From NCBI GenBank assembly GCA_030867875.1, contig JAOWCC010000577.1, positions 151,954,344-152,018,343 of the forward strand: a stretch of 64,000 nt of DNA. The letters run 5' to 3'. The notes below the pieces were generated by a model. That model saw only the letters and a program-made list of their open reading frames with translations. It made no database searches and had not been told where the DNA came from. Origin of the DNA: Actinernus sp. WN-2022. Lineage: Eukaryota > Cnidaria > Anthozoa > Actiniaria > Actinernidae. This document shows, in pieces, positions 7,066-38,237 of this stretch. Within the stretch, counting starts at the first letter, position 1. Each line of letters begins with the position of its first letter. The translations under genes and the position numbers were made by a program.

Positions 7066-7099
7066 TCGCTACCTCATCCTCTCTTGGTTCAGGGGATTA

Positions 7100-8358: not shown

Positions 8359-8430
8359 TGCATGAGAAAGGCAAGAAACTAATACGTAGAGATCTCGAGC
8401 ACGGAAAAGATGTGTAGTTAAAAAAACATC

Positions 8431-14922: not shown

Positions 14923-16475
14923 TATATTTAATTGCTTTTATTAATGATATAACTACGACACAACGCAAGCAGGCGTGTCGATTTCTATGTGTTTACCGGA
15001 ACAATAGACCATTATGATAGATTTTTTGATTCTATAAGCCAATCAGAGCGCTCGTACTATCTGGGTTATATCATAATTGTTAATAAAACACGTCCACAAG
15101 TCCCTACCCTTAAATATTATAATAATAATGATAATAATTGCTGCCGCAGCGAGCGAGCCTGAAGCGAGCGATCAAGGCAGCAGTTCTAATCTGTAAGGGA
15201 AGAGGCCGGTCAAAACAATGGTACTCTGGCGGGACCCAATTTTGATGGAAAGGGGGTTGTACCCGGAACCCACCACCTATTTTGGCAAAATCTAGATTTT
15301 TGACCACAAATATCTTCTTGAATAAAATACTTATTGAAGAAATAACTATATTTCTAGCTTCTACAGGCAGAGAAGAAGATGTGTCTGCATTAAAATCAGG
15401 TATCTCTATTTGACAACGCGAGAAAATCACCCTCGAAAAAAGGGGTAGGGGGTATTACCCGCCACCCACCACCTCCCCTGACAAAATTGGGTCCCATTCG
15501 AAATAACCTCGATTTCTTTTTTTTGACCACAATGCATCACTTCTATTGTCTTTTTTACCACACTGCTTTGCAGGCATCTGATCGTCACGTGACATTACAC
15601 GAGGTGGAACCTGCATTGTTTGAGCTAACTACGTTCAAGCGTTCTTTAATGCATTTCTGTGTACGCAATCTTTGTGTAATCATGAATTTGTTGAAGTGTA
15701 GACGTGTAGGCGAACTCTTTCTAACTCTGTGTGAAATATCAGGATCTCTCCTGTTATCAAGATGGTGAGCAGCAAATAATTTTCTTCTCGGGCTTCGATA
15801 AAGTCAAAACATTTACGACTACATTCTCAATTACAGTTGATTTCCGGTATTTAAACTTCACCTGGGAGAACAGCAGTTTTTGTTGTGCCGGGAATCTTAG
15901 GAAAATGTCGGGAATTGGTAGGCTCAGGAAATTTATCGGGAGATCGTTGATATGTCGGGACAAAATGAAAATAAATAGCGACAACTTTTGAGTTACGCAC
16001 CACAGCTCAAAAAGGATTCAGTCGCACGATAGCCCCAAAACTACAAAATATATTCATCTAACACCTTGGCATTTTTATCACCCAGTAATCTATTTTTCCT
16101 GCCGAAGTGCTACTGTAGGTTCTCTTCTAATACACTTCCTTAACTGAGTGTAGCAGCATTCACTGCCTGTTAGGTATACTAGTTATAATAACATAGGTTC
16201 TTGATGCGCATTAAAAAATATCAATGCGCTTACTGAACGTCTGGTACTGCAGTTATTTACAACAATGGATAAATATATGAATAAAAAAGTATTTTTTACA
16301 ATCTAATGTGGATATAGAACTAACAACAAACATATGTAAGCTACTTTGAAATAATAGGTCTTAAGAGCAGATTTAAATTCAGAAACAGATTTACAGGACT
16401 TAATATGACCTGGTATTGAGTCCAGAGTTCAGGGGCAGCATAAGAGTAGTCGCGTCGGCCATAGGTGACAGTGGA
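14923..16475. other. No recognised gene
   Basis: Contains a direct repeat of CACCCACCACCT and GACCACAA words around 15240-15535, and CGGGAA-rich repeats at 15890-15960. No exon of the ephrin-fibrinogen gene could be assigned here, although its first exon should lie upstream of 18198. Confidence 0.45.
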
Positions 16476-16606
16476 AATGCAGATATACTATATAGTAATA
16501 CATTAAATGCAGCTATACTAGTAATACATTAAATGCAGCTATACTAGTAATACATTAAATGCAGATATACTTTAAATGCAGGTATGCTAGTAATACATTA
16601 AATGCA
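16476..16606. repeat. About 26-base tandem repeat
   Basis: Five variants of a unit containing TACTAGTAATACATTAAATG, head to tail, with small deletions. Confidence 0.85.
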
Positions 16607-16849
16607 GAAACCTCACAACCATTTTCATGTTGTTGATGTAAATTTTGATCAGGGTTTGACAACCTGGCCCCAGATAATGATATAATACGTATTGTCAGTT
16701 TGATTATCATTTCAGCGCAGTGCTCTAGCTTGCAAACACAAGAAACCCCAGCGAACTCGCTACCAAGTAAAATCATGACATCATACTTGTGCGCACAACT
16801 TGATAACGTGCAAACAATCTAATCGGAGTGATTGAAAGAGGCTTGACCG

Positions 16850-17070
16850 AGGGTCTGAATGGGGGGAGGAGGGTCTACATGTCAGTTGTCAGTTAAATTT
16901 TTGGCCATTTGTCAGTTGTCAGTTAGCCCTAGTTAATCATTACTAGAGAAAATTTACAATGTTTGACCCACAAACACCAAATTTGTCAGTTGTCAGTTAT
17001 TTTTCGGTTGTCAGTTGTCAGTTATTTTTAAGGCCGTTTGTCAGTAGGCAGTTAACCCCATTCAGACCCT
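16850..17070. mobile_element. hAT-like short element with TGTCAGT repeats, copy 1
   Basis: The termini AGGGTCTGAATGGGG / CCCCATTCAGACCCT are flanked by the 8-base duplication CTTGACCG (16842-16849 and 17071-17078), the hAT hallmark. The interior is an array of GTCAGTTGTCAGTT-like motifs. Confidence 0.85.
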
Positions 17071-17200
17071 CTTGACCGACTGACCAATCAGAACACTCGG
17101 TTTTCAAGATTAACATACTTGTGATTTCCGAAAATCCGACATTGAACCAACGTACCTATGTACGTATACAAATGTACTTATCACCAAATCTCGTGAATAG

Positions 17201-17325
17201 GCCATTTTGACGATGTTGCGGGTGCAGCTAGAACAATGGCTATCTGTTAAAAATAACACAAGGCGGGTTCTTAGAAGCTCGCGTCTATTGTTCTACTGAT
17301 GCGTGTGCAACATCGTCAAAATGGC
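17201..17325. mobile_element. 125-base palindromic element
   Basis: GCCATTTTGACGATGTTGC pairs with its inverse at 17307-17325, and CTAGAACAATGG pairs further in. Confidence 0.75.
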
Positions 17326-17851
17326 ACATGTGACCACAGGGAACCCAAGCGGGAAGCGCAAATGCACTCAATCAGAAGTTTCATGAAGTTCGGCGCTTTG
17401 CGCAGGTCGTGAGGTAACTATTATACTGACATTGAATTTCAGGCTTTTCATTACCTTTAGTACTCTTTGTAAACCACTGTGTTTCTATTTCTTTTACAAG
17501 GGTGGTCTCAATAAAGTTATTATTATTGTAGTTATTCATACCAAACTGGCTTAAACATGTTTATCTAAACAAGTTTAAAATAATACCTGTTCACCCCGCG
17601 TGCTTGCTCAATTGCGCTAAACTAGTTTCAAACTGACCAACAACAACAACAAACAAACATATAAAATTACACTGACCCGCAAAAAGATAAAGCTAATCGT
17701 GGCGGGCCGTGAATAATTAAACAGAAGAAGCTAATTTAATAAACAACCTGTTCTGTAATTTAACACTATCGTGATAGAGGCAAGATAAACTCTGTTTAAT
17801 TAACAGGTTTAATTGGTGTGAATAGGGTTCAGATAATGAATTAAACATAAA

Positions 17852-18177
17852 CAGGAGCCCATTACCAGGAGCATCCATCTCCCATACTAGGTCTGTGAGT
17901 CAACGTATGACCGGATTGAGCTATATTTAGAACAGATCTCACCGGAGTTCAGGTGCCCACACTTTGGGAATCCAATCAAACCATAGTCAGGACAATGCAG
18001 CGTTAGTAAAATCACCTCAAAGAACAATAGGTCATTCTTAATCTCGATAATTACGGCAAGCATATGCACGATCGCAGCAGAGTCAGAAGGCGGTTACCCG
18101 GGAAACATGTTCTAAAAATAGCTCAAACCGGTCATACGTTGACTAACGGGTATAGTATATATGGACGCTCCTGGTAA
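17852..18177. mobile_element. Inverted-repeat element, CAGGAGCCCATTACC family, copy 1
   Basis: Starts CAGGAGCCCATTACCAGGAG. ATTACCAGGAGC is inverted at 18160-18177. The subterminal GTCAACGTATGACCGG also pairs with its complement near 18135. It ends about 20 bases before the first ephrin exon. Confidence 0.8.
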
Positions 18178-18197
18178 TAAAATATTGCACACACCAG

Positions 18198-18505
18198 ATT
18201 CAAAAATGGAGCATCCCTGAGCGTTCTTACGATGTCAAAGATTAACTTCCTATGCCCGAACGCAGCCCTGATTCCCGCCAAGACACTACTCAATATTGGA
18301 TTGCATCAGATGTATGAGAATATATGGGTCGTCGACAAAGCTTCATTTGACTCTTGCACAGTAGATCTCAGCAGAAAGTTCCCTTATCAACGCATACTTG
18401 AGTGTAACACTCCGCTGACCCTTAAGTGCCACCTGATGGTGTTTCAACAGTTCAGCGCTACAGGTGGGCTGGAATTCCAGCCAGGAAAAGAGTACTATTT
18501 CATAG
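18198..18505 (+). CDS. Ephrin domain exon (N-terminal and central part)
   Basis: The acceptor is ACACCAG before 18198 and the donor is GTAAGT after 18505. The frame starts FKNGASLSVL, which matches the F-x-N-G that follows the NPK of ephrin N termini. The preceding intron is phase 2 and an A-ending codon is completed there, so a Lys as in NPK is possible. The exon holds three of the four ephrin cysteines, the YENIWVVDK strand and the EFQPGKEYYF strand. An inverted-repeat element ends only about 20 bases before the acceptor. Confidence 0.85.
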
Positions 18506-21500
18506 GTAAGTGGAGTCGACTGGCTTAAAAATTGATTTGGCTATTGATAAGTATCTATAACCAAATAAAGGGACATAAGGTCATGATAGGCCCTTTGCGA
18601 GACGTGGTCACGTGACGTTTTGCTTGTCAAAAAAGTGCTTATCAAGAAAGGATGAGGCAAGAGAACGAATCCCATGCCCCATGATAATTATTTGAAATAT
18701 ATTTTTAGTTTCACAACACGTGATGTAATCTAAGTTATTTTGATCTCGTTCTGGTAGGCTACCCTCGTTAGTGACCAACTGTTTATATCCGCGGGATCCT
18801 CATTGCATCGTTATAAACCACTTCTTGTCACAATAGCGCCTATTTACGCCAATCAGGTGTCTTTCCTACAATAACCGGGCTGTGTCCTATTATTCTGAAA
18901 ATTATCGTTGGAACAGACCCATCTCTTATCTCTTGTGCTAGTACAATATCATATGCCGATGCCAGGAATGAAAAGAGCGAGCCAAAATTAGTAAGGGTGT
19001 TTCATATCTTTAAACAGTAGGAACAGGAGCCCATTACCAGGAGCGTCCATCTTCCCCACTGTGTCTGTACCCCAACACAGAGGTAGATGAGGCTATTTTT
19101 AGCATTGCGTTTCGCGCGAAATAGAACAAAGGTAGGCTATTCTTAGCCAATCAGATAGCTAACGTCACTTCTCATTATCATTCTTCTCACTTTCAACGCG
19201 GGAATTCGAATTGCTGGTTTTCACTCAATCCCCAGAGATTCAAATGTTGGTGCCCCAACAAAAGAAGCTAACGAGGAATCTATTGTTTAAGGGCACCAAC
19301 ATGGCGGCAAACTCTTTTCGCGGGAATTTCGAATCTAAAAATAGCCTCATCTACTCCTGTGCTGGGGACCCAACCCATAACAGAGGAACGCTCCTGGTAA
19401 TGGGCTCCTGGTAGGAAGGGCAACTTTTTGAAATCTCAAAAGAGCTGATGAGGCTCGCTGGCACGGCTTGCGCAGGGCTATAAAACTGTCAAACGATGCT
19501 ATTCTAAAATAGATTATCTACAAAAAAAAGGAAATTATAAAATGGTAATTATGTTTAACAAATAGATTCCATTCTGCCGTGCGTCTGTCCTCTTATAGAT
19601 GCACAGGTGACGTCACGACACGTGGAGAATAAAGAAGTGCACCACGAGATGCAGTCGAGTGGCGTGACTGATCGAGATGCAGTCGAGTGGCGTGACTGAT
19701 CGAGATGCAGTCGAGTGGCGTGACTGATCGAGATGCAGTCGAGTGGCGTGACTGATCGAGATGCAGTCGAGTGGCGTGACTGATCGAGATGCAGTCGAGT
19801 GGCGTGACTGATCGAGATGCAGTCGAGTGGCGTGACTGATGTTCTCTTCACGTTTTGGTGTCGTCTGTACATCTATAAGAGGACAGACGCACGGCATAAT
19901 GAATCTATTTGTTTTATATAATGATCGCAAACTAAGTTTAAACTATAATAAAAACATCCAATCAAAACGAGTTGGGAAATTGGTTGCGCGCGCTCATGAC
20001 GCCAACCAAATCAGATCAAACGAATCCGCCTAATAATTGTTTTGGTCCGAAATTAACGCAACTAGTCCTTTATATTTCATTTATTTGTTTTAGCGACTTC
20101 TGACGGCAGCAAGGCATCTCTCAAATTGGGTTCCGGCGGACACTGCAGCAGTCATAATATGAAGATTGCTATCTACGTTTGTACTGGCTCAAGTGGTAAC
20201 TATGATGATTAAAATAATTAGATACTCCTTCAAAGTGTATAAAGTATTTATAGTCGAGCCTATAAGCGAATCTCGAAGTGAATAATGCTCCGCCTTCCAT
20301 AATATCTCTTCCAAACTATTTCCCTGTTTTTCCAAACTATATCATTTGAGTCAGACTCTCCGTATTACTCCAGTGAGACAAATAAAACCTTGTTGCAAGT
20401 ATATATGTCCTAAAGATTTGTGGTTTAACTTGCCCATTTGGGGATATTCTTTACTATTTCGGATATTTCTATTACTGATTGACCTACTGACACTGAAAAA
20501 GTGGCAAATCGAAATGGTAATTTTATTCGTAGTGGAACTTTAAACCAAAGTTTTAACGTATTCAAACTCTCCTTTCAACAATGTTGAAAGGCCATGTCAA
20601 ACGGATTCGACATCGTGTTCCCACAAATGCTGTACCAAATGAATGTTGAAATCGTTTGTTCAAGGCTTAAATTTTACAACATTGGTGCTGGATTTACAAT
20701 TTATCACACAATCAATCATAATAAGGTTTTAATAAGTAAGCTTTGAACAGCGCTTCGTTTTGCAGAATAGAGAAATTCAACTATAAGCCAAGGCCCAGTT
20801 AATTTGACTCATTTTTTCGGTCGTTGTTTCTTCAGATCCAAAATGTCAACCAGTCGTCCCTACGACACAAACTCCATTGACTTGTCCAACCCAGGCTCCG
20901 ATTACCACAGCTCCTACAACCATACCTCCTACAACCATACCTGCAACCACTACATCGCCACCACCAGTACTGCAGTGTGTGGGTAGGTACTTCAAAAGCT
21001 CATGGCTAACCATGTGGGATGCGCGTTTAAGAACTGATCAAACATTGAAGATCAGCAGGAAACGTTGCACTTATCGGCTAGCCTGCAAATACAACCGTCT
21101 CGTATGACGTTTTGCGGCCAGGATCTGGTTGCGTCATTTGATTGGCTCGCATATTAGACATATTAGCCAATCAAATGACGTCATGACCAGATCCTCGCCG
21201 CAAACCTCATCAGTATGGAATTTTTGGCCTCGAATCGCAGACGTCTCTCTTGGGGGACGCGTTTGATTGTGGCTCTCAATGCGAGACGGCTGTGTTCGCA
21301 GGCTAATTACGGGCGTGCAGACTTTACTTCTCGAATAAGCGAGTCCGGAGTTTTAACGAGACAATAAGAAAAACGCGTACGAGTACGGCCGGAGTCGGGA
21401 TAAATAATTCAGAAACTAAAGCCGAGGCTACGTACATACATACATCGGGGCTAATAGCTGATGCGTATACCTGTCACACAGAACACAATAATGAAATAAT

Positions 21501-24500
21501 TGATGTCTATATTTTAAAATGTACTAACGTAAGCGGTATTATGAAATAACCCAGAGGAATCTCGCACGCTGGTTGGCTGTAAACCGTGTTTGTATTGTGG
21601 GCATGCGATTGTGATTTTAATCAGCAAAACTGACAGAGATAGTTTGACTAGAATACAACGGCCTCAGTTGCTAAGAAAACATATCACTGACATTTGTCTT
21701 TTAAGTTATTTGTACGTAAAACACATAAACGGATAATAAGTCTAGTTTTCAACCAATTCTCCTGACAGACGACTAGAATGAGAAATCGAACTGGAGAGGG
21801 AAAAGCAACATTTCCATATGTCTCAGATTTAACCTCAAACTAAATGAAAGTTTTAAGTTTAGCAACAGTCCGCTAACTCCGTGAGTCCGACCGGCAATTT
21901 TGGCGTTGAAGAAGTCACGAAATAGTAAGGCCAATCATTCAGCCTGTTTGGTCTTAGATAATTCAGAGAGGATTTTTAGCTTTCTCCCATATATATACCA
22001 TAGCCGAAAAACCTGAATTTTGCAAACTACCATGTCTGGCAGTTGTGAAGTTATGAAACCAATTCAAACTTTCTGATTTTTCTCAGAACAAATTGGGCCT
22101 CAAACAAAATGTCAAAAACGACCTTTTCCCTCTTCCCTTGCACGCTAAGGCTCATCTCATTGGAAGGTCCCAACAACTAAATCTTTCCATTGATTTTGGC
22201 GAAAATAAGAGTTCAAATTTACTAAAAGCTGCTCCAAAGGGAGCATGTTTTCTCATGCACAGTCGACGACAAAAACACACGTTTCATACTAGACTGCGAG
22301 TTTTTCTTCCGTCCGTCCCTCACTCTCCTCGCCATTCCCGGGAATTCGTTTCAGACTCGGTCCTATTCCTCGCTCGGTTAAAATGAGTCTTATTAAATCA
22401 TGTTTGTGATCAATACACACGGGGACTGGTGACCAAGAAAGATAAAGGAACTTGCTCGCAGTCTACCCATTTCAAGTCCTCTATTCCTTGGCTTAAATTT
22501 CTGGAGAAAAACGTATTGAATTCTGAGTTATTCTTTTCGGGGAATGTCGTAAGTTTCAAAATAGAGCCACACAGAGAAGTGCCTTCGTTTCTCTCAATTC
22601 ATTATATTGGTATTTTTTGAGTGGTTATATTCATATATATGAAGGCTGTTTTCGTAAAAGCAGTCTTACCGCCTCAACCCCAATTTGAGCGCTAGTCCAG
22701 AGAAAAATATGCTCCCTTTGTCCATACGGTCTCGGTAACGTGTTTTATGAGCAAGCTTGATAACGCATTGATGTGAAGCGCTAGTGCTTCCACTTCAAAC
22801 CCTTTTCGTGTTAATGCCTTACATATACATACGTGTTATCACTTTTAAGGTCTTAGTGACATCCAAGCCATCACAAATCAGACCAATATACTCCCGTCGA
22901 TACACCAGGAAACGAGCAAGATCCCATTAATTATGGCTGCTTTACAAACCTTAACTGAACAACTCGATGAAGTGAGGGATAAGTTGGACAATTGTTCCAG
23001 CCCGTCTACCACGCCTGCAAGTACCAGTGCGCCTGCCACATTACCAACCACCAAACCAGGTAAAATAGCCTATAGAAACTTCTAAAATAGTTTAAATATC
23101 CAGAAATTTAGTCCAGAAGCTAATTATGGGTAGTACAGATCTTTTCAATCCGTTGCTAGGGGTTCGCACTCGACTTAGGAGGAAATTAAAACCAGGGCGA
23201 TTTTGCATCTCTACTCATTTTTTTCTTAGAATTACTCCGCTCTCCTAATGAAGAGTCAGACCTAAACCTTGGCTCAGCTAAAAATCCACAGAGATAGACA
23301 AATGCAAGAATGCTTGCTCTAATAGGTCAACATCGCAACCAATGTTCGTGATATCATAGTTTAATTTATTTAACACTGAAGAAAGAAGGTTGCGGAGTTC
23401 TTTCCATCAAAGTAATGGTATTAATTTCTTATTATGAGTTGTGCGCGATATAAAATCAGTTACTTAACGACGGGTCGAGACGTATCATTCACATAGAGCG
23501 GTTTTCGATTGAGTGTCGAAAGTAAAAAGTGATTGCTTTGGTTTTGCGTTTACTTACTAGCTTTTCTATTAGCTGTGAAAATCTGTGAAAAGGTGCAAAG
23601 CACGCTTTGTAACCCTCTGGGTTTTTAAGCTTAGAAAAATGCTCTTTTCCATTTTTTTATCTCATTATTATGTGCTTTATAATCTTGGCAATGGTTAAAT
23701 CGGAATCGGAATCTGTTTGGTAATTATCAGCCAATAAAGGTCTAACCTGAAACTAAACATTGGTTTGGTCAGTGAGGCAATCATTTTTTTTTTTTTTTTT
23801 TTTTGTATTTTGTCAATTTTTTTTTCCTGTATTACAAATTGATTTTACAAAAAAACGGATAACATAGACAAGCAGTACATAACATAAATAAAAAAATAAA
23901 AATTAAAAAAGCAATTTGACAAAGATACATCATTTTGTTATTTTAGCGAGAGTTATCGATATCCATGATTGCATTTCCTTTTCTTCATGATTGGTTCAAG
24001 TAAAACCATGCAATCACGAATTACTTCAGTTTTCTCTGTAATTAAGTTTGTTTTGGTTTTACGACACTCAATCGAAAACCGCTCTAAAAGCAACTTTTAT
24101 TTCCTGATACAGTTCTGAAAAACTGCAAAGAGCATTACTTAGCCGGAGAGAAAACAAGCGGTGTGTATCGCATCGCCCCCGACGGTCTTGGCGAGTTTGA
24201 AGTGTACTGTGATCAAACCACTGACGGTGGGGGGTGGGCTGTGTTTCAAAAACGCTTCGATGGCACCGTAGATTTCTACAGAACATGGAAGGATTATAAA
24301 TCTGGGTTTGGTACTCTAACGGGCGAGTTTTGGCTCGGACTTGACAAGATTCACCGGCTAGCTGTGACGCCTGTGACGTTAAGAGTGGACCTTACAGCTG
24401 CGGATGGAGAGAAGCGATTTGCAAAGTACACTGGGTTCAAAATTGGAGACTCTGCCAGCAAGTACAAGTTGACTTCTGGAACTTACTCAGGTAAAACAGT

Positions 24501-27230
24501 CAGTAAATTCAGATGACTAATCTTTGCAATAGTAAAGCGATACCAAAGTGCCACGTACCATAGAGCCATTGCATAAATGACGTCCAATTTTAAAATACAT
24601 TGTTTATGAATATTTAGTCTCGTATTCATGCGAAAATGCTTTTGTGTGGCAGACGCCATTTATGCAATTAATGGTCTATATATGGAGTTGTGGGGACATG
24701 AGGGGAAGGCTGGGAAAACAGGAAATTATTTATATAACTGTGGATTACTTTAGTCCGCTTATGCTTTACTAGCAGGGACCCGCGGAACTTAGGGATGGAC
24801 CATTATATATATATATTTTTGGGGAGAGGGGGTTGGGCAAATACCCCTAATAAATTTGAACACAGGATTTGAAAAGGAAAAAAAATTGTGCACAATAAAA
24901 TGAAGGAAAAAAATATCGTGCAATAAACACAGGCAATCCACAATGAAATCGATGGCTCCATAAAATAGACAGTGTGATGCATGCCCGGAAGGGCCTAAGG
25001 GGGCCGGGGGGGGGGGGGGGGGGGGGGGATAAAAAGACCGAGGATTGCCTCAGAAAAGCTGAAAAATACCCTACAAAATACTTCACCCAGAAAATGCAAA
25101 CTCTAAACTTCTACCGTTTAAATTTCCGCCAATCCAAAATATGGGTCAGTTCTCGGGCTAGCTTCGCGACAAAATATCGGCTATGGTGTGGCGCCTCTTA
25201 AGATCCACCTCTCAAAAATACCAGATTCTAAAAATATTTTAGTTTTGCTTCAAGAACCCCTAAAATACCGGATCACCAATTTTACCCCCTACAAAATACG
25301 ACGATCATCCCCGTCCACCAAGTGTAGGGAGGGATGTATATCAATGGCGTGGTCTATCAGACAGGAGGGTCTGAATGGGGTTAACTGACTACTGACAAAC
25401 GCCCTTAAAAATAACTGACAAATGACGATTTTTTTTACTGACAACTGATAACCGAACAATAACTGACAACTGACAAATTTGTTTTTTGTGGGTCAAACAT
25501 TGTAAATTTTCTCTAGTAATGATTAAATAGGGCTAACTGACAACTGACAAATGGCCAAAATGTTAACTGACAACTGACATGTAGACCCCCCTTTCAGACC
25601 CTCCTAAATCGTCAATGTTGATGCAGTAAAGTATTTTACATCTTGTTCAACCATGTTAGGGCGATTTATGGTCGTGATATTGCTTTAAAATGCATTATAA
25701 ATAATTGAAATGACGTCATTTTATATATGGGAGATTTACTAATGAGTTGAACATGAATTGAGTCAGAACATTGAACTTGTTAATAATAATAATAATAATA
25801 ATTCCTAACGATAAACATAGAAATAATACAATCATTAATTAATTAATTAATTAATGTTTGGTATATAGCGAATAGCTGAAGGAATAAAAACCAGCCTATC
25901 TGATGTAATTTCGCCCAACTAGATTAATTTTTTGCGTAATTACTCGCGCAAATGAAGTTCAGGGGGGGTTAAGCCGTTTTTTCTCGCTTTTTGCTTGGCC
26001 GAGCGGAGCCTGGGCAACTGGTTAACGTTAATTCTGTGTTTCGGTGTTGAATATGAAAACTTAGAAACCATTCAGTTTTGTCATGAATAGCATTCCCAAC
26101 ACATTTTGCTAACACAAATGGGTATACCATTTCCAGGGGGGGTGGGGTAGGGAATAATTGTAATTGAGAGCTTATGTTTCATATGTAGCAAATAGTTAAA
26201 GGATTCAAAACTAGTCTATCGTATGTAATATCGACCACCTAGCTGAAATCTTTGCGTTATTACTCGCGCAAATGAAGTTCAGGGGGGGTTAAACCGTTTT
26301 GAATTTTTGTTTTTGCTAGCATTTCCCCCCCTGAACTTTAATGTGAACCACATTACGAGGAACCCCTGCAGTTTTCTATGGGTAACGTTTTGGTAAAACC
26401 CCCATGTCTCTACGATGTTGCTTTCTACCGTAAAAATCCATCGCCCTTTCCGTTTTGGCCGCAAATCATGCTGGGACAGTTTCATTGGCTATTTCCGAGT
26501 CCAGAACTGGATGAAATAACGTTGCAGCGTTAAAACCATAGTGTTGGTAGTAAACACGACGAACACAACATATTGGTTTCAAATTTGGGGTAAGATGTGC
26601 GAACCTTGCAAAACTGAGGGGGGAGGGGTGGAAAATCCTATGCCTTTCCTGTTCAAAATGGAACCCTCCCCCATTAGAAGTGGCTAGAATGAAGTTGCAG
26701 CTTACAAATAATGGTTTTGATAGTAAACACGACGAACACAACATATAGGTTGCAAATTTGGGGTAAGAAATGCGAACCCTGCAAAACTGAGGGGGGAGGG
26801 GTGGAAAATCCTATGCCTTTCCTGTTCATAATGGAACCCTCCTCCATTTAGAAGTGGCTAGAATGAGGTTGCAGCTTCAAATCACAATGCATGGAGTGAT
26901 GTGGCAGAGTTAAAACCATGGTTTCTGCACTCGACGCGACAACCGCCATGCGGCATGAACTGCGGATGACTGTCGGTTCGCGAGCTTGTGATGACATTCC
27001 ATGCACTTCGATTTAAAATAACAATCGTTTCAAGGAGAAACGTTCTCTGCTGATGTTTAGGCCACTTATTTCCACGCGAAGTGCTTCAAAATTCCACTTG
27101 AGCCTTAGTAGGTGGGAAAACACCATACACCCAGGATCACTACCATGCAAGTTGCATGGCACTACCCAAGACGCGCTATGACGTAGCTAACATCTAACAC
27201 GCATGTTGGATTATCGTTAGCGGTATCCAC

Positions 27231-27264
<34 letters not shown>

Positions 27265-30200
27265 GATAACGATAACGATAACGATAATAACGATAATAAT
27301 AATAACGATAATAATAATAATAATAATAATAATAACGATAATAATAATTCCTAACGATAATCATAGAAATAATACAATCATTAAATAATTAATTAATTAA
27401 TGTTTGGTATGTAGCGAATAGTTAAAGACGTACAAACCAGCCTATCCTATGTAGTTTCGCCCAACTAGAACAAATTTTTGATGTATTATTCGCGAAAATA
27501 AAGTTCAGGGGGTTAAGGCGGTTTTTGTAGCTTTTTGCTTGGCCGAGCGCCAAGGCACAGTATGCTTTGTTTCCTTCATACGCAGGAGGGCCTGGGTAAC
27601 TGTTTAATATCAATTCTGTCATTCAGTGTTGAACATGAAAACTTAGAAACCGATCGGTTTCATCATGAATGACATTCCCGAGACATTTTGCAAAAATAAA
27701 TGGGTATACCATTTCCAGGTGGGTGGGGTAGGGAATATTTGTAATTCATGGCTTAATGTTTGGTATGTTGCACATAATTAGGAGAAATAAACACCATCCT
27801 ATCTGATGTAATTTCGCCGAGCGAGATTAACTTTTTGATGTATTACTCGCGCAAATGAAGTTCAGGGGAGGGGGGGGGGGGGTTAAGCCATTTTGAAATT
27901 TTATTTTGGCTGTCATTTCTCCCCCTGAACTTTAATGTCAACCAAATTAAGAAGACCCCCTGCAGTTTTCCATGGGTATCATTTTGGTGAAAACCCCATG
28001 TCTCTACGACGTTCCTTTCTACCCGTAAAAATCCATCGCCCTTTCCGTTTTGGCCGCAAAGCATGCTGGGACGGTTTCATTTGCTATTTCCGAGTCCAAA
28101 ACTGGATTAAATAAAGTTGCAGCGTTAAAATCTTAATTTTGCCTCCACTACACAATTCAGACACACACAGTCATATAGGATACTTGGGGATGTCGGTCAG
28201 CCGAGCCCGACAGCGTTTATTCATATAATTGCTCATAACAGCTTACAGGCATTCGTTCTTCAACTTTTGGTCTCTATTTACTACTATTATTAATTATTAC
28301 GACACTGCCGGATACGAAAACCCAAAACCACTGTGTGGACTAAACGGGAACGTATACTCCCACCAATGCAGTGCCGCCAACTCTGGGAGCTGAGGTCATC
28401 TAAATACATAATTGCTCATAATAGCTTACAGGCATTCGTTCTTCAACTTTTGGTCTCTATTATTATTAATTATTGCGACACTGCCGGATACGAAAACCCA
28501 AAACCACTGTGTGGACTAAACGGGAACGTATACTCCCACCAATGCAGTGCCGCCAACTCTGGGAGCTGAGGTCATCTAAATACATTTAGTCCAATATGAT
28601 AAATACAATCTTATGCCGATTTAAATTAAACTCGGACGATTCTAACCTAGCCAGAATGGTTTCCCTTAATGTTCGTTATGCCTCCGGCTTCTCGATCCAA
28701 TCATTTAAAAAAAATTAAAAAAAATGAAGCAAGGTAGCAAGGCTGACCTAGAATGAATTCAACCTCTTAACAGTCACCTACTTATGGCATACTACATTAC
28801 CCATAATTCTCAGCACTACTCTCTCCAGGCTTCTGTTCCGTGCCAGCAAAATATTCATTTCTGTGAATTTCGTACCTCAACTAACATAAATTACACATTT
28901 TGCCTCCACTACACAATTCAGACACACACAGTCATATAGGATACTTGGGGATGTCGGTCAGCCGAGCCCGACATGCATATAGATTTACAAAGGTAGGGCC
29001 CGAGTGGTGAACCGTTAGCCTTTGCCACTGACATGACGTTAGCATTAACATATTTCCCTCTATCATGCCGCTGGAAGTTTCCGTCTGGGATACGAGAATT
29101 AGCAGCTGAAAAAGCTCCGCCAGACCTTTTGGAATGTGTACTAAATTTGGAATTATCGGGGACAATGTCTTTAAATAATTTCTTAAACAATCCCCTAAAA
29201 TAGAGTAGCTAACATGCTTTTTCATACGCAAAAGGCGTTTCTGCTTATGGATCCAAATAAAATATCACTGGAATTTCGTTAATTCCGGCCTTAGACATAT
29301 ATATGTATATACAACCTTAATAACTGGACAAAATACGATTTATGCTAGATGTAGACTTGGATGTCTCTATCAAATACTGTAAATATAGGGCCAATGAAAT
29401 GGATTGGCGGAAACAGATTTTACTTATAAGAATTCATGTGCAAATAATGTCCATCTATTAAATGCTGTAAGGTAGGGTTCAGTAGTCCCTCTGGATCTGG
29501 ATGCTAGAACTGCTTTATTTCAGGTTCTCCTTTATCTGTTTGGTTCTATCACTGGTAATGTCTGATGACCACAACTCGTTAATGTCTGATAACCACAACT
29601 CGTTGGCAACTTCTGCATGGAGAAAGAAAAATGAAACAAACGAAAAATAAGGGCATACAGTGAAAGCAGTGATATGGCAAAGACCATGTCAGTATTGAAG
29701 TATCGATAAATTTCATAACATGGTAAGATTATAATGCCCATCCAAGGCGTGGCCACAATGCCTGATACACCCCTTCAGGGTACCCCTTTAGGGCCGACTG
29801 AAAACACATTTTCAGCGATTACGTGTTACATAAATTCTTTCAAAATCTGTGCAGAAACATAACACCATTCCTAGTTGAAAAACTTAAACATTTATTGCCA
29901 AATATACAATTGTTAATTGGCTTTACCTCTCATAAACAACTCAGGATTATTTATTGCTTAAAACTACCCAATCTTGGACGAAATCACTCCAGTGTATCCC
30001 ATCTGAACAAAGTACAGGCCAGAAATGACCCAATTTCACAGCGGTACAATTACCATGCCTCTAGCATTACGTACTCGTGTAATCAATTACTTTACAAGTC
30101 AGATAGACAGGCTGACATAAGCAATTGTTGTCATAACTCCCAATCCTGGGAAAATGCATTTACCCCACAATATCGTGGTCGATAATACCGAGTATTAAAC

Positions 30201-33200
30201 TTTGGCACCTTAGCCTTTGGCACCTTAGCCTTGTAACAAGCATGCGAACCTATCGCACGTGTGCGGACCCCATATAGGACTTCAGAGCCGTTCATGACAA
30301 TTTTAGCTACGTTTACATTGTCTGTAAAATGCATTTACCCGCAAGTTCGTGGTTGCTGATAATGAGTATTAAACTTCGGCAACTTAGCCTTGTAACAGCA
30401 TGCGAACCTATCGCACGTGACCCCATAAATGGTGAATACTATAAGAAATGCATAGTCATTAATAGTATCGATGATCGTCATAATCTATTATTCTACTAAT
30501 TTCTTCAACATAAGAATTTAGCTATCTTGGAATCCATTGTGCCTCCAAACTTATTCCCTTGATACAGTTCTGATAAATATCTAAAGCGATACCGAAACTG
30601 CAGATAGGCCGGGACCTCAGAGCCATTCATGACAATTTTGGCTACGTTGTTTACATTGTCTGTAAAATGCATTTACCCCGCAAGTTCGTGGTTGCTGATA
30701 ATGAGTATTAAACTTCGGCGGCTTAGCCTTATATAACAGCATGCGAACCTATCGCACGTGTGCTGACCCCATAAATGGTCAATACTAAGAAATCAGTCAT
30801 CATTAATAGTATAATCTTCATAATCTATTATTCTACTAATTCTTCTGCATAACAATTTAGCTATCTAGGAATCCATAGGTCTGTGATAAAAATCTAAAAT
30901 GATGAAATGTAGATATGGCACCTAGAACGTTCATGACAATTTTGGCTACATTTATGTAAATGTCTGTAAGCCATGACACAGTTTATGAGCAAACACTTTG
31001 ACAGACAGGGAGACTGTATACAACCGGCTCTATTAGGTAGAAATTTGAGACATTTCAATTTCTGACCTATTTTGGTGGAAAAACCTTTCTTCAAAGTCTA
31101 ATGTACTTCCACATGCTGTAGCGGATGCGTCACTGAAATAGACTCGGTCAGTCTATTTTTAACAGGCCATAAAGGGATACCGTTAAGTTTATTAACAACC
31201 TAAGTTCTATAACAGACAGAATAAGCCGAGTAACATACAACTGCTGATTTGGTAGCGGAATTGCAGAGTGATAACAGCGTGAATATTCCTTGTCGTAAGT
31301 CTAGAAACATTCCCCATTGCACACAATTACAACTGAAATAACTTTGCCGCAACATATTGCCAATTTTCTTAACATGGAATGTGGAACTTAATGAATGGAA
31401 CACTGCGGTAAGATCTTTTGACAAGCTTTGAATTATTTTATCTTTAGCAGCAATGGTAGCATCTGAAGCGTTAAATTAATTAGGGCACCAAATATATTTC
31501 CAATGAGAATTAACTTCATTAGGTAGGAACCGAACTTAAACAGATCGGAATGCACTTGTAAACTGACAATTTGCCGTGCTAGAATATAACTGAATGTTAC
31601 TACAAGTCCATAGTATATATACACTACAGTAGATTTCCTTCAGATCTCCACTTTTTAATTAACAGTTTTGAGCAATTCGACCTTAACGAAATATGGTATT
31701 GAACTGAAAACGAAAGGCAAAACGTGCGATTCGTCTGTAAATATCCACTAAAACAACCAATATGTCATTTGTTCTTCAAAAATTACTACGTCGTAATAAC
31801 GGCTTTCAAGTCGAAAGACTGCACATGAAGTGCTCCATGCTTAACAAATTCCTTTTAGGACAGACACATCTTCTCATCTAAACTTGTTCTTATATATATT
31901 CAATTATTTGTATGTGTAAGATCTAGAATTAACTTACGGACTTCTGAAAAGAAACAGATAATGGTTAACAATATTCGACTTGGTCTGACACTTCTGAAAT
32001 ACAATCAAGACACAATAGTTCGTTAAACGCTTCTTCTACAAACACGGCTTCTTCAAGAGCCGACTTATTATTTTGTGCCTTTTAAGGACCAGGAATGTAC
32101 AAAAACGGCAATAAGTAGCTATATAGCCAAGGTAGACAACATATAAAACAATTAAACCGAGGCACACCATTGCCACCCATTGTTTAAAAGCTCTACGTAA
32201 ATTCCCTTAACAGAGTTGCGCCTCTGAGAAGTTTTAAAATTTAGTATTAATGTTTTCAAGTTGTTGGCATTCAACCTCTGGTACGTTACGTATACTAAAA
32301 CCACAATCAACCTCTAAGGAACTCACAATGACAAAATCAAAAATTCCAGTTAACCGGAACATACTACACCTTTTCGTAAATGTCGACACTTTCGCCTAGT
32401 CGTTTATGGAGCATTTGACGAGCGGCAAGGAAGTCAGGACAATTCGCCAACCAGCGTCCATATAGCCTGTGTAGCAAGCATTTCTGTGGGTTTTCCGATT
32501 GTGTCGTCTGTGTGGTATAAAGTGGTAATCTGGGAACCAGATTATGGCTTGGAGTTTCCCTCACTCTTTGATGTTAGGCTCTGGAGGATGTGAAAAGCTT
32601 AGGCAATTTCACAACTCTCGCTTCTGCTCTGTAGATAGTTTTCTCCTCCTCCTCATCTTTGACTGCTTCTAGTACTGCTTTAGCGGATTTGTACTGTTCC
32701 TGGTTGCTTTTCTTTTTTGAATGAGGGCGTTCCACCTGAAGTTTTTATCTGCTTAATTTCTCTAATCTGTTCTGCTGCACTTTGTGAGTCATTAGACCTT
32801 TTAAGGGCTGCCATAGTTCTTTATAAGAGTAATCACATCTGAAAAATGAGATCTTCGTTGTTGCGTTCGGTGTTCTTTTTAACTTCGGTTTCTTCCAAAA
32901 TGAAGCAAGGTAGCAAGGCTGACCTAGAATGAATTCAACCTCTTAACAGTCACCTACTTATGGCATACTACATTACCCATAATTCTCAGCACTACTCTCC
33001 CCAGGCTTCTGTTCCGTGCCAGCAAAATATTCATTTCTGTGAATTTCGTACCTCAACTAACATAAATTACACGTTTCGGCAGTAAGAAATGCGAACATTG
33101 CAAAACTGAGGGGGGAGGGGTGGAAAATCCTATGCATTTGCCGTTAACTGATAACGGTGCCCTCCCCATTAGAATTGGCTTGAATGAAGTTGCAGCTTTA

Positions 33201-35520
33201 AAATCTTAGTTTGGGTAGTAAATACGACGAACACAACATATTGGTTGCAAATTTGGGGTAAGAAATGCGAACCTTGCAAAACTGAGGGGGGAGGGGTGGA
33301 AAAAGTGCCCTCCCCATGAGAAGTGGCTAGAATGAAGTTGCCGCTTTAAAATCTTAGTTTGGGTAGTAAACACGACGAACACAACATATTGGTTGCAAAT
33401 GTGGGGTAAGAAATGCGAACCTTGCAAAACTGAGGGGGGAGGGGTGGAAAATCCCATACCTTTCCTGTTAATACATTTAGAAGTGGCTAGAATGAGGTTG
33501 CAGCTTCAAATCACAATGGATCAAGTGATGTGGCAGAGTTAAAACCATAGTTTCTGTACTCGACGCGACAACTGCCACGCGGCATGAACTGCGGAAGGCT
33601 GTCGGTTCGCGAGCTTGTGATGACATTCAATGCACTTGGATGGAAAATAACAATCGTTTCAAGGTGAAATTTTTTGGCGATGTTTACCCAACACTCGCTA
33701 TGACCTAGCTAGCGTCTAACACACCTGTTGGATTATCGTTAGCGGTATCCACTAGTGTAATACCGGTATAAGAGAAATAATAAAATGAATAATAACAACA
33801 GATAAACAAACGCAATTGATTTTTTCTGAATTAGTTTTTCCCGTAGAACTCGAATTTGTTTATTATTTTGGCGAAAGGTGAACTCTAGGGGGTGCAGCCG
33901 ACATTTTCTAGCCCTATTTTCATTAAATCGTGTAAAATTTTCAGTATCATTTGATTATCGTTAGCGGTACCCAATTGTGTAATATAATAGATATAATAAA
34001 AATATCCACTTGAAGATTTAACTTGAGTTGGTGTCTTAAAAATTCAAGTGGCCACTGTATTTTGCGTGTTTGATTATCGTTAGCGGTATCCACTTGTAAC
34101 GACAACGACAACGACAACCACAACCACAACCACAACCACAACCACAACCACAACCACAACCACAACCACAACCACAACCACAACCACAACCACAACCACA
34201 ACCACAACCACAACCACAACCACAACCACAACCACAACCACAACCACAACCACAACCACAACCACAACCACAACCACAACCACAACCACAACCACAACCA
34301 CAACCACAACCACAACCACAACCACAACCACAACCACAACCACAACCACAACCACAACCACAACCACAACCACAACCACAACCACAACCACAACCACAAC
34401 CACAACCACAACCACAACCACAACCACAACCACAACCACAACCACAACCACAACCACAACCACAACCACAACCTTTAACCAGGATAAACCTTTCAGCTAA
34501 CAATAGGGACCTTAAGCAACCACGACGGCAACGTCTAGGACGACGGCATAAAACAATAGCCTTAATTACAAAATACAATAACTGCACATGAAAATGCACG
34601 TAGTCGCCTACATTTTCACCGTTCTCTGCAAAAACACAACGTGAAAACCCCAAATTGTAAGTTTTAAAGATAACGCGAACGTAGAACGTAAATCAAATCA
34701 TTTTTCGTTCAGCGTGATCGGAACTCTATAGTCATTATATTTTTCGAAAATCTGGTTGTGAAAAACAATTGAAGGCGAACAAGGGAAATAATAAACACCA
34801 AACTTCGGGAGAATGTTTTTCCTACGTCCCGTCGTCACTGCCGTCGCCGTCCTGGTTGCTTAAGGTCCCTAGTAGTTATCAATGGGTGCTCTGGAAAATT
34901 ACAACAAAAGGATCGGAACAATAAAATGTACAGTAAAATAACTAAGACGTCAACTCAATATAACCTAATTCCAAGAGTATATAATATAATAATTAATTAC
35001 TAATATCTAAAATCTAAAAATATCACCTAATTTCGATTTAAAAACTATATTTTAACAACAACGATACTTCTTTTACTGCTCTAGGTAGTCCATTAGAATC
35101 TTTAGCTTGTGATTGGCCAGCAGAATTGAACTCGCGGGAAACACACTAAAAAAATAACCCGGTCTGTATAAACGTCGCTTCATAGACGTAGTATACGAGT
35201 TGGACGCTCCGGGTAATGGGCTCTTCACACGTCTAATTTGATCATGTTGACTGATCATAGGAACTGCAGGCGATTCTTTGGCATTCACCAACGGAGGCAA
35301 GTTTACAACCTTCGACCAAGACAACGACACATGGGATGGAAAGAACTGCGCCACGTTGTTTAAAGGAGCTTGGTGGCACAAAATGTGTCACGAGGCGGAT
35401 TTGAATGGAGTGTACCGCAACGGCTCACACCCTGGTGACTTTGCAGACGGCATTATTTGGAGAACTTGGAAGGGGTACGAATACTCATTTTCCAGAAGTG
35501 AGATGAAGATCAAGCTCTGA
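18198..35520 (+). CDS. Ephrin-domain plus fibrinogen-C-domain secreted protein (5' exon missing)
   Basis: Six exons (18198-18505, 20094-20195, 20836-20982, 22850-23059, 24113-24490, 35261-35520) join in one frame. Junction phases are 2 into the first exon and 1 at all five later joins. About 467 residues are seen. Residues about 1-136 are an ephrin ectodomain: the four family cysteines lie in FLCP, DSC, LEC and GGHC, with YENIWVVDK, LEFQPGKEYYF and MKIAIYVC in the expected order. Two Thr/Pro-rich linkers follow, with a short leucine-rich helical stretch between them, then a full fibrinogen C-terminal domain with its calcium site (DQDND) and paired cysteines. The last residues are the normal end of that domain, with no membrane segment or GPI signal, so the protein is probably secreted. 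The known families suggest ligand or glycan recognition outside the cell. The signal-peptide exon was not found. Both domain calls are strong; the function of the fusion is unknown. Confidence 0.85.
18575..19020. mobile_element. AGGCCCTTTGC...GGTCACGTGAC family element with nested repeat
   Basis: Starts with AGGCCCTTTGC and GGTCACGTGAC as at 7926 and 8355, and ends with GAGCGAGCCAAAATTAG as near 8000. A second repeat (about 18660-18900) is the inverse of 6840-7065. Confidence 0.55.
19024..19410. mobile_element. Inverted-repeat element, CAGGAGCCCATTACC family, copy 2
   Basis: Starts CAGGAGCCCATTACCAGGAG and ends with the inverse. The inner arms GATGAGGCTATTTTTAG pair with CTAAAAATAGCCTCATC. 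It is 387 bases long. Confidence 0.8.
19561..19909. mobile_element. Inverted-repeat element with a minisatellite core
   Basis: About 40-base inverted ends (AATAGATTC, GCCGTGCGTCTGTCC) enclose the 28-base minisatellite at 19645-19840. The whole unit is 349 bases and non-coding. It lies between the first two ephrin exons. Confidence 0.8.
19645..19840. repeat. 28-base minisatellite, exactly seven copies
   Basis: Seven head-to-tail copies of a unit starting CGAGATGCAGTCGAGTGGCG, 196 bases in all, with almost no divergence. There are no spacers, so it is not a CRISPR array. Confidence 0.95.
20094..20195 (+). CDS. Ephrin domain exon (C-terminal strand)
   Basis: A pyrimidine-rich tract and TTTTAG precede 20094. 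The frame completes an Ala codon and reads ATSDGSK, then GGHC and MKIAIYVC, the last strand of the ephrin fold with its fourth cysteine. The donor at 20196 (GTAACT) is not perfect but keeps the frame. Reading on past it would stop within four codons. Confidence 0.8.
20836..20982 (+). CDS. Thr/Pro-rich linker exon 1
   Basis: The acceptor is TTCTTCAG and the donor is GTAGGT, phase 1 at both ends. The 49 residues start DPKCQPVVPTT and are mostly Thr and Pro, with a near-duplicate APTTIPPTT type repeat and four cysteines in all. Such segments are normally O-glycosylated extended stalks. The frame is set by the join. The other open frames over this stretch are shadows. Confidence 0.75.
21079..21305. 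mobile_element. Inverted-repeat element (TAGCCTGCAAATAC termini)
   Basis: TAGCCTGCAAATACAACCGT and its complement bound 227 bases, and a second, inner palindrome (ATTAGCCAATCAAATGACG region) fills the centre. It lies in the intron after the first linker exon. Confidence 0.75.
22850..23059 (+). CDS. Helical plus second Thr/Pro linker exon
   Basis: The acceptor is TTTTAAG and the donor is GTAAAA, phase 1 at both ends. The 70 residues begin GLSDIQAITNQ, continue with a heptad-like leucine pattern (MAALQTLTEQLDEVRDKLD) that could be a short coiled coil for oligomer formation, and end in a Ser/Thr/Pro tract. Coiled-coil stalks before fibrinogen domains are usual in ficolins and related proteins. 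Confidence 0.75.
23494..24086. mobile_element. TA-flanked inverted-repeat element (GAGCGGTTTTCG termini)
   Basis: GAGCGGTTTTCGATTGAG at the left is repeated inverted at the right, each next to TA. About 590 bases with T-runs and no coding. It is a mariner-like non-autonomous element by its TA target. It ends about 27 bases before the fibrinogen exon acceptor. Confidence 0.8.
24113..24490 (+). CDS. Fibrinogen C domain exon (first half)
   Basis: The acceptor ends ATACAG and the donor is GTAAAA. The 126 residues include NCKEHYLAG, SGVYRIAPDG, FEVYCDQTTDGGGWAVFQ, FYRTWKDYKSGFG and GEFWLGLDKIH, a nearly exact fibrinogen-related domain core. Both cysteines of the first disulfide are present. A TA-flanked inverted-repeat element ends about 27 bases before the acceptor. 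Confidence 0.92.
24557..24675. mobile_element. Short palindromic element in the last intron
   Basis: Inverted ends ACCATAGAGCCATTGCATAA and its near complement around 24645-24675, 119 bases apart. Confidence 0.55.
25006..25028. repeat. Run of 23 G
   Basis: An uninterrupted G run in a region (24795-25330) with GGAAGGGCCTAAGGGGGCC nearby. The surrounding sequence resembles the family at 35620-35942 in its GATGATCG-type motifs, but the borders are unclear. Confidence 0.9.
25366..25602. mobile_element. hAT-like short element with TGTCAGT repeats, copy 2
   Basis: The reverse complement of the element at 16850-17070, with the same AGGGTCTGAATGGGG terminus and internal AACTGACAACTGAC repeats. No clear target duplication was seen here. 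Confidence 0.75.
25804..27230. repeat. Microsatellite-bounded repeat block, copy 1
   Basis: The block starts CTAACGATAA just after a (TAA)n run and ends GATTATCGTTAG (to 27220) just before another (TAA)n run, so its termini are inverted. Inside are a 370-base unit, a 360-base unit rich in AAGTTCAGGGGGGG, and two 170-base tandem units (26528-26703, 26705-26880). A second copy follows at 27350-33760. Confidence 0.65.
27229..27352. repeat. (TAA)n / (AACGAT)n compound microsatellite
   Basis: TAA repeats mixed with AACGAT hexamers, about 120 bases, between copies 1 and 2 of the repeat block. Confidence 0.9.
28137..28212. repeat. Split direct repeat B2
   Basis: The outer copy of the 76-base repeat. 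Its left border cuts off a local repeat unit after TTAAAATCTTA, so it marks the end of the inserted element. Confidence 0.8.
28216..28585 (+). repeat. Tandem duplicate carrying Kazal-like fragments
   Basis: Two copies of about 180 bases (28225-28403 and 28408-28585). Each encodes, on the + strand, a frame reading AGYENPKPLCGLNGNVYSHQ then CSAANSGS and a stop. CGxNGxxYxxxC is the core of a Kazal inhibitor domain. The rest of the domain is absent. It lies between A2 and B2 of the tyrosine-recombinase element, so it may be a piece of host gene carried along. Confidence 0.6.
28725..28897. repeat. Split direct repeat A2
   Basis: The second copy of the 170-base repeat, directly next to B1 (28898-28973). 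Confidence 0.85.
28898..28973. repeat. Split direct repeat B1
   Basis: 76 bases, from TTTTGCCTCC to GCCCGACA, identical or nearly so to 28137-28212. It overlaps the end of the recombinase frame. Confidence 0.85.
28918..29240 (-). pseudogene. Tyrosine recombinase C-terminal fragment
   Basis: The minus strand reads FSTHSKRSGGAFSAANSRIP followed by NFQRHDRG. HSxRSGGA...AN...F.RHGRW is the box II region of the recombinases in DIRS/Ngaro and related elements, with the His and Arg of the active site. The part before it (SYSILGDCLRN) lies in another frame, so there is at least one frameshift. The catalytic tyrosine would come further on, and the normal ending is not clear. Confidence 0.65.
30130..30815. 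repeat. Imperfect tandem repeat, about 340-base spacing
   Basis: A block starting near TCTGTAAAATGCATTTACC and continuing through GAACCTATCGCACGTG to the ATAAATGG region occurs at about 30317-30480 and 30658-30815, with a degenerate third copy in 30150-30300. It lies inside the tyrosine-recombinase element. Confidence 0.6.
32575..32820 (-). pseudogene. Gag-like ORF start of the tyrosine-recombinase element
   Basis: Minus-strand ATG near 32818 reads MAALKRSNDSQSAAEQIREI. After a frameshift it continues NQEQYKSAKAVLEAVKDEEEE. A Lys-rich, charged helical start of this kind (KKxNxxQYKxxxxVLxxV) is common at the first ORF of such elements in cnidarians, from memory of the family. The stop in the first frame and the shift show decay. 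Confidence 0.4.
32902..33072. repeat. Split direct repeat A1
   Basis: About 170 bases nearly identical to 28725-28897, in the same orientation, about 4.2 kb apart. Only a few single-base differences were seen. Confidence 0.85.
33082..33505. repeat. Tandem array of about 150-165-base units
   Basis: Three units (about 33082-33190, 33195-33342, 33345-33505), each with ACACGACGAACACAACATA-type starts and AAAACTGAGGGGGGAGGGG cores. They are the same family as the two units at 26528-26880. Confidence 0.75.
34098..34473. repeat. (ACAACC)n microsatellite, about 376 bases
   Basis: About 62 near-perfect hexamers, with ACAACG at the left edge. It follows GATTATCGTTAGCGGTATCC as other microsatellites here do. 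The hexamer has no stop in any frame of the minus strand, which makes long false ORFs (Trp-Leu, Cys-Gly and Val repeats). Confidence 0.97.
34505..34870. mobile_element. Inverted-repeat element (AGGGACCTTAAGCAACCA termini)
   Basis: Starts AGGGACCTTAAGCAACCA and ends with the reverse complement at 34870. About 30 bases of each end pair with few mismatches. It is 366 bases long with no coding capacity, so a non-autonomous DNA transposon. Confidence 0.8.
35200..35226. mobile_element. Fragment of the CAGGAGCCCATTACC family
   Basis: GGACGCTCCGGGTAATGGG matches the right end of the elements at 17852-18177 and 19024-19410. Only this end was recognised. It ends 35 bases before the last fibrinogen exon. 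Confidence 0.55.
35261..35520 (+). CDS. Fibrinogen C domain exon (second half) and stop
   Basis: After ATCATAG the frame reads GTAGDSLAFTNGGKF, then the calcium-binding DQDND, CATLFKGAWWHKMC with the second disulfide pair, LNGVY and IIWRTWKGYEYSF, ending EMKIKL and TGA at 35518-35520. This is the normal C-terminal end of the fold. The exon lies 10.8 kb from the first half, which is a very long intron for this gene. Confidence 0.92.
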
Positions 35521-37569: not shown

Positions 37570-38237
37570 TTACATGGATTTGCCTTTGAAAATAAATGTT
37601 TCACTAAAATCAACTATTTTAAGCAATGATGTATCGTCTGTATACAAGAAACAGTTTGATGATATTTTATTGGGAAGGTCGTTCATATAAATCAAAAAAA
37701 GCAAGGGACCAAGAACAGATTCTTGAGGTACCGGCCTGCTCTTATTTCTAACCAATCACTTCTTTGACCTTCAATTATTACTCGTTGTTTCCTTCCAGAT
37801 AAATAACTTGCTATCCAGCTTAAAAGTGGGTCCCGAACACCTAATGACTTTAATTTGTGCAGAAGTCCATCGTGCCATACTCTATCAAAGGCTTTACTAA
37901 TATCGAGGAAAACCATTCTTGTATCAAACCCCTTTTCCAATGACTCATAAATTTGATGCACAATATATTAAATAAGCTGGTTAATTGTAGAATCCCTGGA
38001 CGAAAGCCAGCCTGGAAGGGATACAAAAAACCTATTCTTATTAAAAAAATTGTACAAACGAATAAATACGACTTTTTCAATTATCTTAGAGAGACTTGAA
38101 AGAAACGAAACGGGGCGGTAATTCAATTTACTTTGCCGGCCGTCCTTCTTGAAAAGTGGAATTACGTTTGCAAGTTTTCATTGATTTGGAAAATGACCGT
38201 GACTAAGCTATTTATTGATTAGGCTAGTAAAAGATTT
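37570..38237 (-). pseudogene. LINE reverse-transcriptase fragment, C-terminal part
   Basis: The minus strand reads, over three frames, ANVIPLFKKDGR, NYRPVSFLSSLSKIIEK, MVFLDISKAFDRVWHDGLLH, WIASYLSGRKQRV, SVLGPLLFLIYMNDLP and the active-site YTDDTSLL. These are the ordered motifs of a jockey/CR1-like reverse transcriptase. Stops and frameshifts show it is dead. Its N-terminal continuation lies at 39838-39975, across an inserted element. Confidence 0.85.

Follow-up and report, generated by a model that had tools for sequence, protein, structure and literature searches.

Ephrins are taken as membrane-bound signals that act at cell contact. Angiopoietins and angiopoietin-like proteins are secreted ligands of receptor tyrosine kinases, composed of a coiled coil and a fibrinogen head, and in angiopoietins it is the fibrinogen head that binds the kinase receptor. 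Cnidarian ephrins have predicted transmembrane domains (PMC2405795), and PMC6993872 states that the Eph receptor-binding domain was identified only in ephrins and reports it in two proteins of Endozoicomonas montiporae.

The gene described here lies in a stretch of 64,000 nucleotides (the window) from the anemone Actinernus sp. WN-2022, which is part of a 190-Mb contig in a 1.39-Gb assembly. Like the ephrin-B type and the cnidarian membrane ephrins (PF00812; for instance P0133), its product has an ephrin domain with four cysteines, but hydropathy indicates no membrane helix inside the protein, and the ephrin-type tail is replaced by a stalk, a coiled coil and a fibrinogen head. It shares the fibrinogen C head with its DxDND stretch and a putative multimer stalk with ficolins, tachylectin-5A and other secreted fibrinogen lectins (PF00147), from which it differs by the N-terminal ephrin domain, the coiled coil and a WWH motif in place of WWY. 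As in angiopoietins and angiopoietin-like proteins, a coiled coil is combined with a fibrinogen head, but the expected receptor-binding head is here the ephrin domain. The database proteins P0001 (Nematostella), P0002 (Actinostola), P0005 (Oculina) and P0007 (Porites) agree with this architecture in every domain and in the linker, and are orthologues or near-orthologues of the window fusion. P0001 is named 'techylectin-5A isoform X3', and the names of the fused proteins, as far as shown, omit the ephrin half. The preliminary description of this DNA had stated that no described protein is known to join the two domains; this holds in so far as no description was found in the open-licence literature, the available portions of PMC6208414 and PMC3640398 containing nothing on an ephrin-fibrinogen fusion, but the architecture is present in databases under other names.

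The gene extends over about 33 kb (2263-35520) and consists of seven exons on the + strand, which join into a single frame of 1,506 nt coding for 501 residues and closed by TGA. All six introns are of the GT-AG type. Exon 1 (2263-2363) contains the start codon, a hydrophobic leader and an N-terminal piece of the ephrin domain, and its end, like the start of exon 2 (18198-18505), is in phase 2; exons 3 to 7 start in phase 1. The bulk of the ephrin domain is encoded by exon 2 and its C-terminal part by exon 3 (20094-20195), followed by a first S/T/P-rich stalk with Cys174, Cys187 and Cys218 in exon 4 (20836-20982). Exon 5 (22850-23059) encodes a heptad coiled coil up to Cys268 and then a second S/T/P-rich stalk, exon 6 (24113-24490) the N-terminal part of the fibrinogen C domain, and exon 7 (35261-35520) its C-terminal part, with the motifs DQDND and WWH..CH and the stop codon. 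The preliminary description had listed six exons joined in one frame with consistent phases, and all their coordinates are correct, with AG before and GT after each and TGA at the end of the last; the exon count was wrong, as exon 1, 15.8 kb upstream, had been missed. The two exons from 18198 on do contain the four ephrin cysteines, as had been proposed, but not the complete ephrin fold, the N-terminal piece of which comes from exon 1.

The sequence of exon 1 is MEKLLRLFVVTCFIGASLGTVTYPSLMWDPRNP, followed by the donor GTGAGT, and its phase 2 end is the one needed by the exon at 18198. At the join of exons 1 and 2 the window protein reads YPSLMWDPRNPIF, compared with NPSILWDSKNPIF in P0005-P0007 and YPSIQWDHRNTIF in P0132, and the I residue of the window version is created at the splice. 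The four fused clusters whose N-terminus is full have a counterpart of exon 1, as a PSxLWDSKNPIF-like stretch in P0005-P0007 and as PSIQWDHRNTIF in P0132. The exon was traced by tblastn, in which single matches were weak (E 0.47 and 9.9), and a scan of the + strand from 1 to 18400 for a W...N motif gave six matches, one of which came after a hydrophobic stretch starting with Met and was followed by a donor in the right phase. The strongest proof of this predicted exon is its match to P0005-P0007 and P0132. A leader exon near 18198 was rejected, as no hydrophobic start with a fitting donor was found in a scan of 8000-18197. A pseudogene was ruled out, the 1,506 nt being without stop or frameshift and conserved in two orders.

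The introns contain several repeats. MITE-like elements with near-identical inverted ends (CAGGAGCCCATTACCAGGAGC...) are present at 17852-18178, stopping 19 bases upstream of exon 2, and at 19024-19410, inside intron 2. In the same intron, a 28-base unit is repeated in tandem, with seven identical copies (19645-19840). In intron 6, about 63 copies of the 6-base repeat AACCAC, with 99% matches, extend from 34098 to 34473 and produce meaningless long open frames on both strands, and a 176-base unit is duplicated at 28225-28585, where an open frame weakly matches part of the Kazal domain (E 0.013), short of the cut-off.

Three protein searches returned both domains in one protein for two of 4 hits, eight of the best 120 of 1,322 hits and five of 81 hits, respectively, the 1,322-hit search having scored only candidates that share most words. 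Together they comprise nine database clusters (P0001, P0002, P0005-P0010 and P0132), and the domain pair, which the preliminary description had proposed to look for in other genomes, is thus joined in the same way in other anemones and in stony corals. Of the named sources, Nematostella vectensis and Actinostola sp. belong to the Actiniaria, Oculina patagonica and Porites lobata to the Scleractinia. All four are thus hexacorals, and no octocoral, medusozoan or bilaterian protein with both domains was among the matches listed (best 120 of 1,322). The gene had been thought to be of interest in a symbiotic or colonial animal; Nematostella, which carries it, is neither. The N-terminus is complete in four of the nine clusters (P0005-P0007 and P0132) and absent in the other five, which include isoform X3 from Nematostella and the partial protein from Actinostola.

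The preliminary description had named two adjacent genes as the finding that would contradict a fusion. An ephrin gene and a neighbouring fibrinogen-related gene wrongly joined could account for introns as long as 15.8 kb and 10.8 kb, and the named Nematostella, Actinostola, Oculina and Porites proteins are probably gene predictions. Five of the nine clusters (P0006, P0008, P0009, P0010 and P0132), with 445-511 residues and both domains, nevertheless come from contigs that, at 1,774-2,563 nt, have no room for such introns, and since the gene in the window extends over 33 kb, these contigs most likely represent spliced transcripts. The N-terminus is full in P0006 and P0132, while P0008, P0009 and P0010 begin inside the ephrin domain. 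Furthermore, the linker exon at 22850-23059 is conserved across two orders. It matched the linker of the Nematostella and Actinostola fusion proteins in tblastn (22858-23115, E 1e-11; 22855-23058, E 4.6e-8), and because it belongs to neither domain, a chance join is excluded. The sequence of P0002 ends at the codon at which exon 6 ends in the window and has an odd insert at about the exon 4/5 join, so that both boundaries may be common to the two genes. The C-terminal tails of 26 ephrins with a transmembrane-like (TM-like) stretch had a best E of 0.23 in the window and thus nothing below 0.2, a weak result, as in the control on the ephrin loci with 1.5-kb flanks nothing fell below E 0.08. Two wrongly joined genes are therefore a most improbable explanation, and we regard the fused ephrin-fibrinogen architecture and its conservation as real with near certainty. 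It is a new architecture of known domains and apparently old in Hexacorallia; as the same join occurs in other anemones and in stony corals, the fusion looks like an old gene that has been retained, and less like an accident in a single genome.

The origin of the fusion was addressed with trees of either domain. In the fibrinogen-domain tree, calculated by a quick method with a simple model from 119 of 122 rows (P0023, P0038 and P0058 were below the required coverage, from which the partial P0002 was excepted), the ten fused rows are on one side of a branch with an SH-aLRT of 94, which was not a starred branch. The ephrin-domain tree of 48 rows contained the window, 41 found proteins less P0141, which was too short, and seven exons of the same genome, L006 being the window itself and therefore dropped. 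It has no single fused clade: the fused label needs four changes, of which starred branches force at least three, and the fused rows were on one side in 0% of 200 bootstrap trees. After this tree had been viewed, 13 rows were removed, namely nine that were long or divergent and the fragments P0144, P0152, P0153 and P0156, which had been placed among the fused rows. The resulting 35-row tree needs two changes and has the fused rows on one side in 6% of the bootstrap trees, and one clade was not rejected (p-AU 0.288). A single origin of the fusion is likely. The window pairs with Nematostella in both ephrin trees (support 100/95 with 48 rows and 96/95 with 35 rows).

As to its function, we lean towards the fusion being a secreted, clustered Eph ligand, the fibrinogen head of which would attach it to a glycan, matrix or microbial surface. 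A Pfam search of the 467-residue product of the six exons gave only two domains above the cut-off, both of which had been predicted: Ephrin at residues 6-131 (7.7e-17, 62 bits, cut-off 25) and Fibrinogen_C at residues 258-466 (7.3e-71, 238.9 bits). The solved structure scoring best by sequence with the ephrin part is ephrin-B2 (4.4e-12). Cysteines C53, C87, C103 and C154, which we take to be the four canonical ephrin cysteines, are invariant in an alignment of five sequences (A1). At the ephrin loci of the same genome, the exon ends after Y-Y/F-F-I/L-G and is followed by GT in seven of eight cases, including the window.

The loop that presumably enters Eph and faces the receptor is FSATGGLEF in the window, shorter than FSPNLWGLEF of human ephrin-B2 and without its L-W, the residues that enter the Eph pocket. 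Its length varies among the fused proteins (FSATPEGLEF in Nematostella, FSAVGPSGLEF in Porites), and these features would fit an ephrin domain that has lost Eph binding and only lends structure or adhesion to a lectin. This seems rather unlikely to us, since the core and the cysteines of the domain are conserved and L-W is also missing in several cnidarian ephrins with a TM-like stretch, among them the Nematostella 'ephrin-B2' P0133 (FSATADVLEF) and P0003 (YSALSSQVF), and is therefore not a deficit special to the fusion. Related loops are encoded by other ephrin exons of the same genome (YSATAQGLEF in L001, QSATAQGLEF in L003 and FSATAQELEF in L005), and L001 and L005, which like P0133 have a loop close to that of the Nematostella fusion, cluster in the ephrin tree with proteins in which a TM-like stretch is present. 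The predicted fusion loop is closer to those of cnidarian ephrins than to that of human ephrin-B2, which makes Eph binding plausible. Receptor-type genes are at hand, as the genome has 17 matches to the Eph ligand-binding domain (Ephrin_lbd). Eleven of these 17 are located within C398:6.29-6.83 Mb and C632:0.10-0.33 Mb, a distribution suggesting that Eph-type receptors have expanded locally.

A search of the ten fused proteins for 19-residue stretches with a mean hydropathy above 1.6 revealed none past the N-terminus that could be an ephrin-type membrane tether, and in nine of the ten the fibrinogen domain forms the C-terminal end, the exception being the partial P0002. The leader of P0005 is below the 1.6 mark. 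From the hydrophobic leader and the lack of an internal anchor, both by hydropathy, we infer that the protein is secreted, and the soluble product foreseen in the preliminary description is thus probable. The absence of an internal anchor would also suit a soluble antagonist, which occupies Eph receptors while not being backed by an ephrin-bearing cell and so blocks membrane ephrins, and TM-like ephrins occur in the same genus or species as fusions (P0133 in Nematostella, P0127 in Porites). We consider such an antagonist improbable, because clustering is predicted from the conserved coiled coil, and soluble ephrins, once clustered, activate Eph receptors.

The favoured clustered ligand depends on the linker (residues 175-293), of which 45% is S, T or P and which has two N-glycosylation sequons, NQT and NCS. 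It contains cysteines 187, 218 and 268, the latter two invariant in an alignment of eight sequences (A3). When a heptad register was counted backward from the cysteine of the linker motif [DE]NC[ST], the eight core positions were V, L, I, M, F or C in all ten fused proteins, the best other register giving six of eight. The register had been fixed by eye on two sequences before the count. In P0007 the motif occurs a second time, at residue 89, and this unrelated match was excluded. The cysteine at the end of the coil, in core register, is conserved in 10/10, and this position would suit an inter-chain disulphide. The structure models represent the Porites orthologue P0007, not the window protein itself. 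The model from eight sequences was useless (mean pLDDT 37.9) and that from 65 sequences good (80.3), with helices at 219-231 and 233-265, a pLDDT of 57-81 in blocks from 221 to 270 and values below 50 in the stalks. The multimeric product that had been suggested is therefore probable, on coiled-coil evidence (the heptad core and the middling-confidence helix in the P0007 model) that goes beyond the earlier basis of this claim.

In the reading that we favour, chains would join through the coiled coil and the core cysteine Cys268, perhaps also Cys218, so that the ephrin heads would be clustered, as the membrane does for ordinary ephrins. By analogy with ficolins, several fibrinogen heads would anchor the molecule to a glycan, the extracellular matrix or a microbial surface. 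A clustered Eph ligand would then be shown away from ephrin-bearing cells, and Eph receptors nearby would be triggered (or blocked). If the conserved clustered fusion works in this manner, Eph receptors of corals and anemones would also receive a soluble or matrix-bound ligand.

The last two exons encode a complete fibrinogen C domain, as had been described, the match covering positions 3-219 of the 221 in the profile. The D-x-D-N-D stretch, which we take to be the fibrinogen calcium site, is present in nine of the ten fused proteins, including the window; the tenth, the partial P0002, is without that exon. By sequence score, the best solved structure for this part is ficolin-2 (2.7e-63), and the head of the P0007 model superimposes on L-ficolin with a TM-score of 0.95 by target length and 40% identity over the head. 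The best 50 of 514 Foldseek rows obtained with this model (E up to 10) were all fibrinogen heads and included no ephrin row, and the assignment of the ephrin fold therefore rests on sequence. All nine fused proteins that have the exon carry WWH where most fibrinogen heads have WWY; at this position, 112 unfused heads have Y in 96 cases, F in nine and H in four, three being not determined. WWH is a mark of the fused group and may alter the choice of ligand, and with this substitution in 9/9 ficolin-like acetyl-group binding cannot be assumed.

Fibrinogen C domains are numerous in the genome, with at least 170 matches when 150 of 463 candidates were scored. Many of these span almost the whole domain within a single open frame and are clustered, for example on C685, C540, C635 and C1398. 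Ephrin matches were found in eight places including the window, plus C685:26766531, and none of the fibrinogen matches listed is on the same strand as one of the eight other ephrin places and less than 100 kb away from it. In a search of the genome, the linker part of the query matched only at the window, and the fusion therefore seems to be single copy.

The abundance of fibrinogen C domains would fit a molecule that is mainly a pattern-recognition lectin or opsonin, whose fibrinogen heads bind microbes or algae and whose ephrin heads bring this load to Eph-bearing cells for uptake. Published work points in the same direction: the fibrinogen-related protein (FREP) family of the anemone Nematostella is vastly expanded and FREPs are implicated in innate immunity (PMC12549020), and Eph-driven uptake has been hypothesised from the ephrin genes of coral Endozoicomonas, which might aid entry into coral cells via Eph receptors (PMC4781883, PMC9743535). 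We nevertheless hold this lectin role to be unlikely, if worth keeping in mind, as the linker exons are found at one genomic place only, unlike a fast-multiplying immune family, and several FREPs are tied to mature cnidocytes and suggested to be venom components in the same study (PMC12549020), a further role that the fusion may have. These readings overlap in part with that of a surface-held, clustered Eph ligand, and the odds given to them do not sum to one.

The Eph ligand that we favour would link Eph signalling to the recognition of glycans or microbes, in a way that can be tested, in animals where bacterial ephrins have been proposed to serve coral-cell entry (PMC4781883). A bolder extension, which we think quite unlikely, is that a secreted hexacoral Eph ligand with a lectin-type head is an innate bridge by which Eph receptors, otherwise regarded as receptors for cell contact, read glycans or microbes and which bacteria imitate or intercept; if this were true, Endozoicomonas with ephrin genes of its own would be imitating or intercepting an existing uptake route of the host. 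Two pattern scans of genome contigs for bacterial ephrins, in which 34 and 68 stretches matched, gave no relative.

The remainder of the window contains other features. Two open frames at 45780-46232 and 51343-51849 are alike by eye (AAVSWVEQ...FTACV and AAVTWAEQ...FTLCA) and have no Pfam match; we presume that they are perhaps an H-type-lectin-like repeat. A Kazal domain match (3.5e-8) is located between them, in 50519-50890. Retrotransposon pieces are found at 61610-63322 on the + strand, with zinc knuckle, aspartyl protease and reverse transcriptase matches, and at 37692-37967 on the - strand, with a reverse transcriptase fragment.
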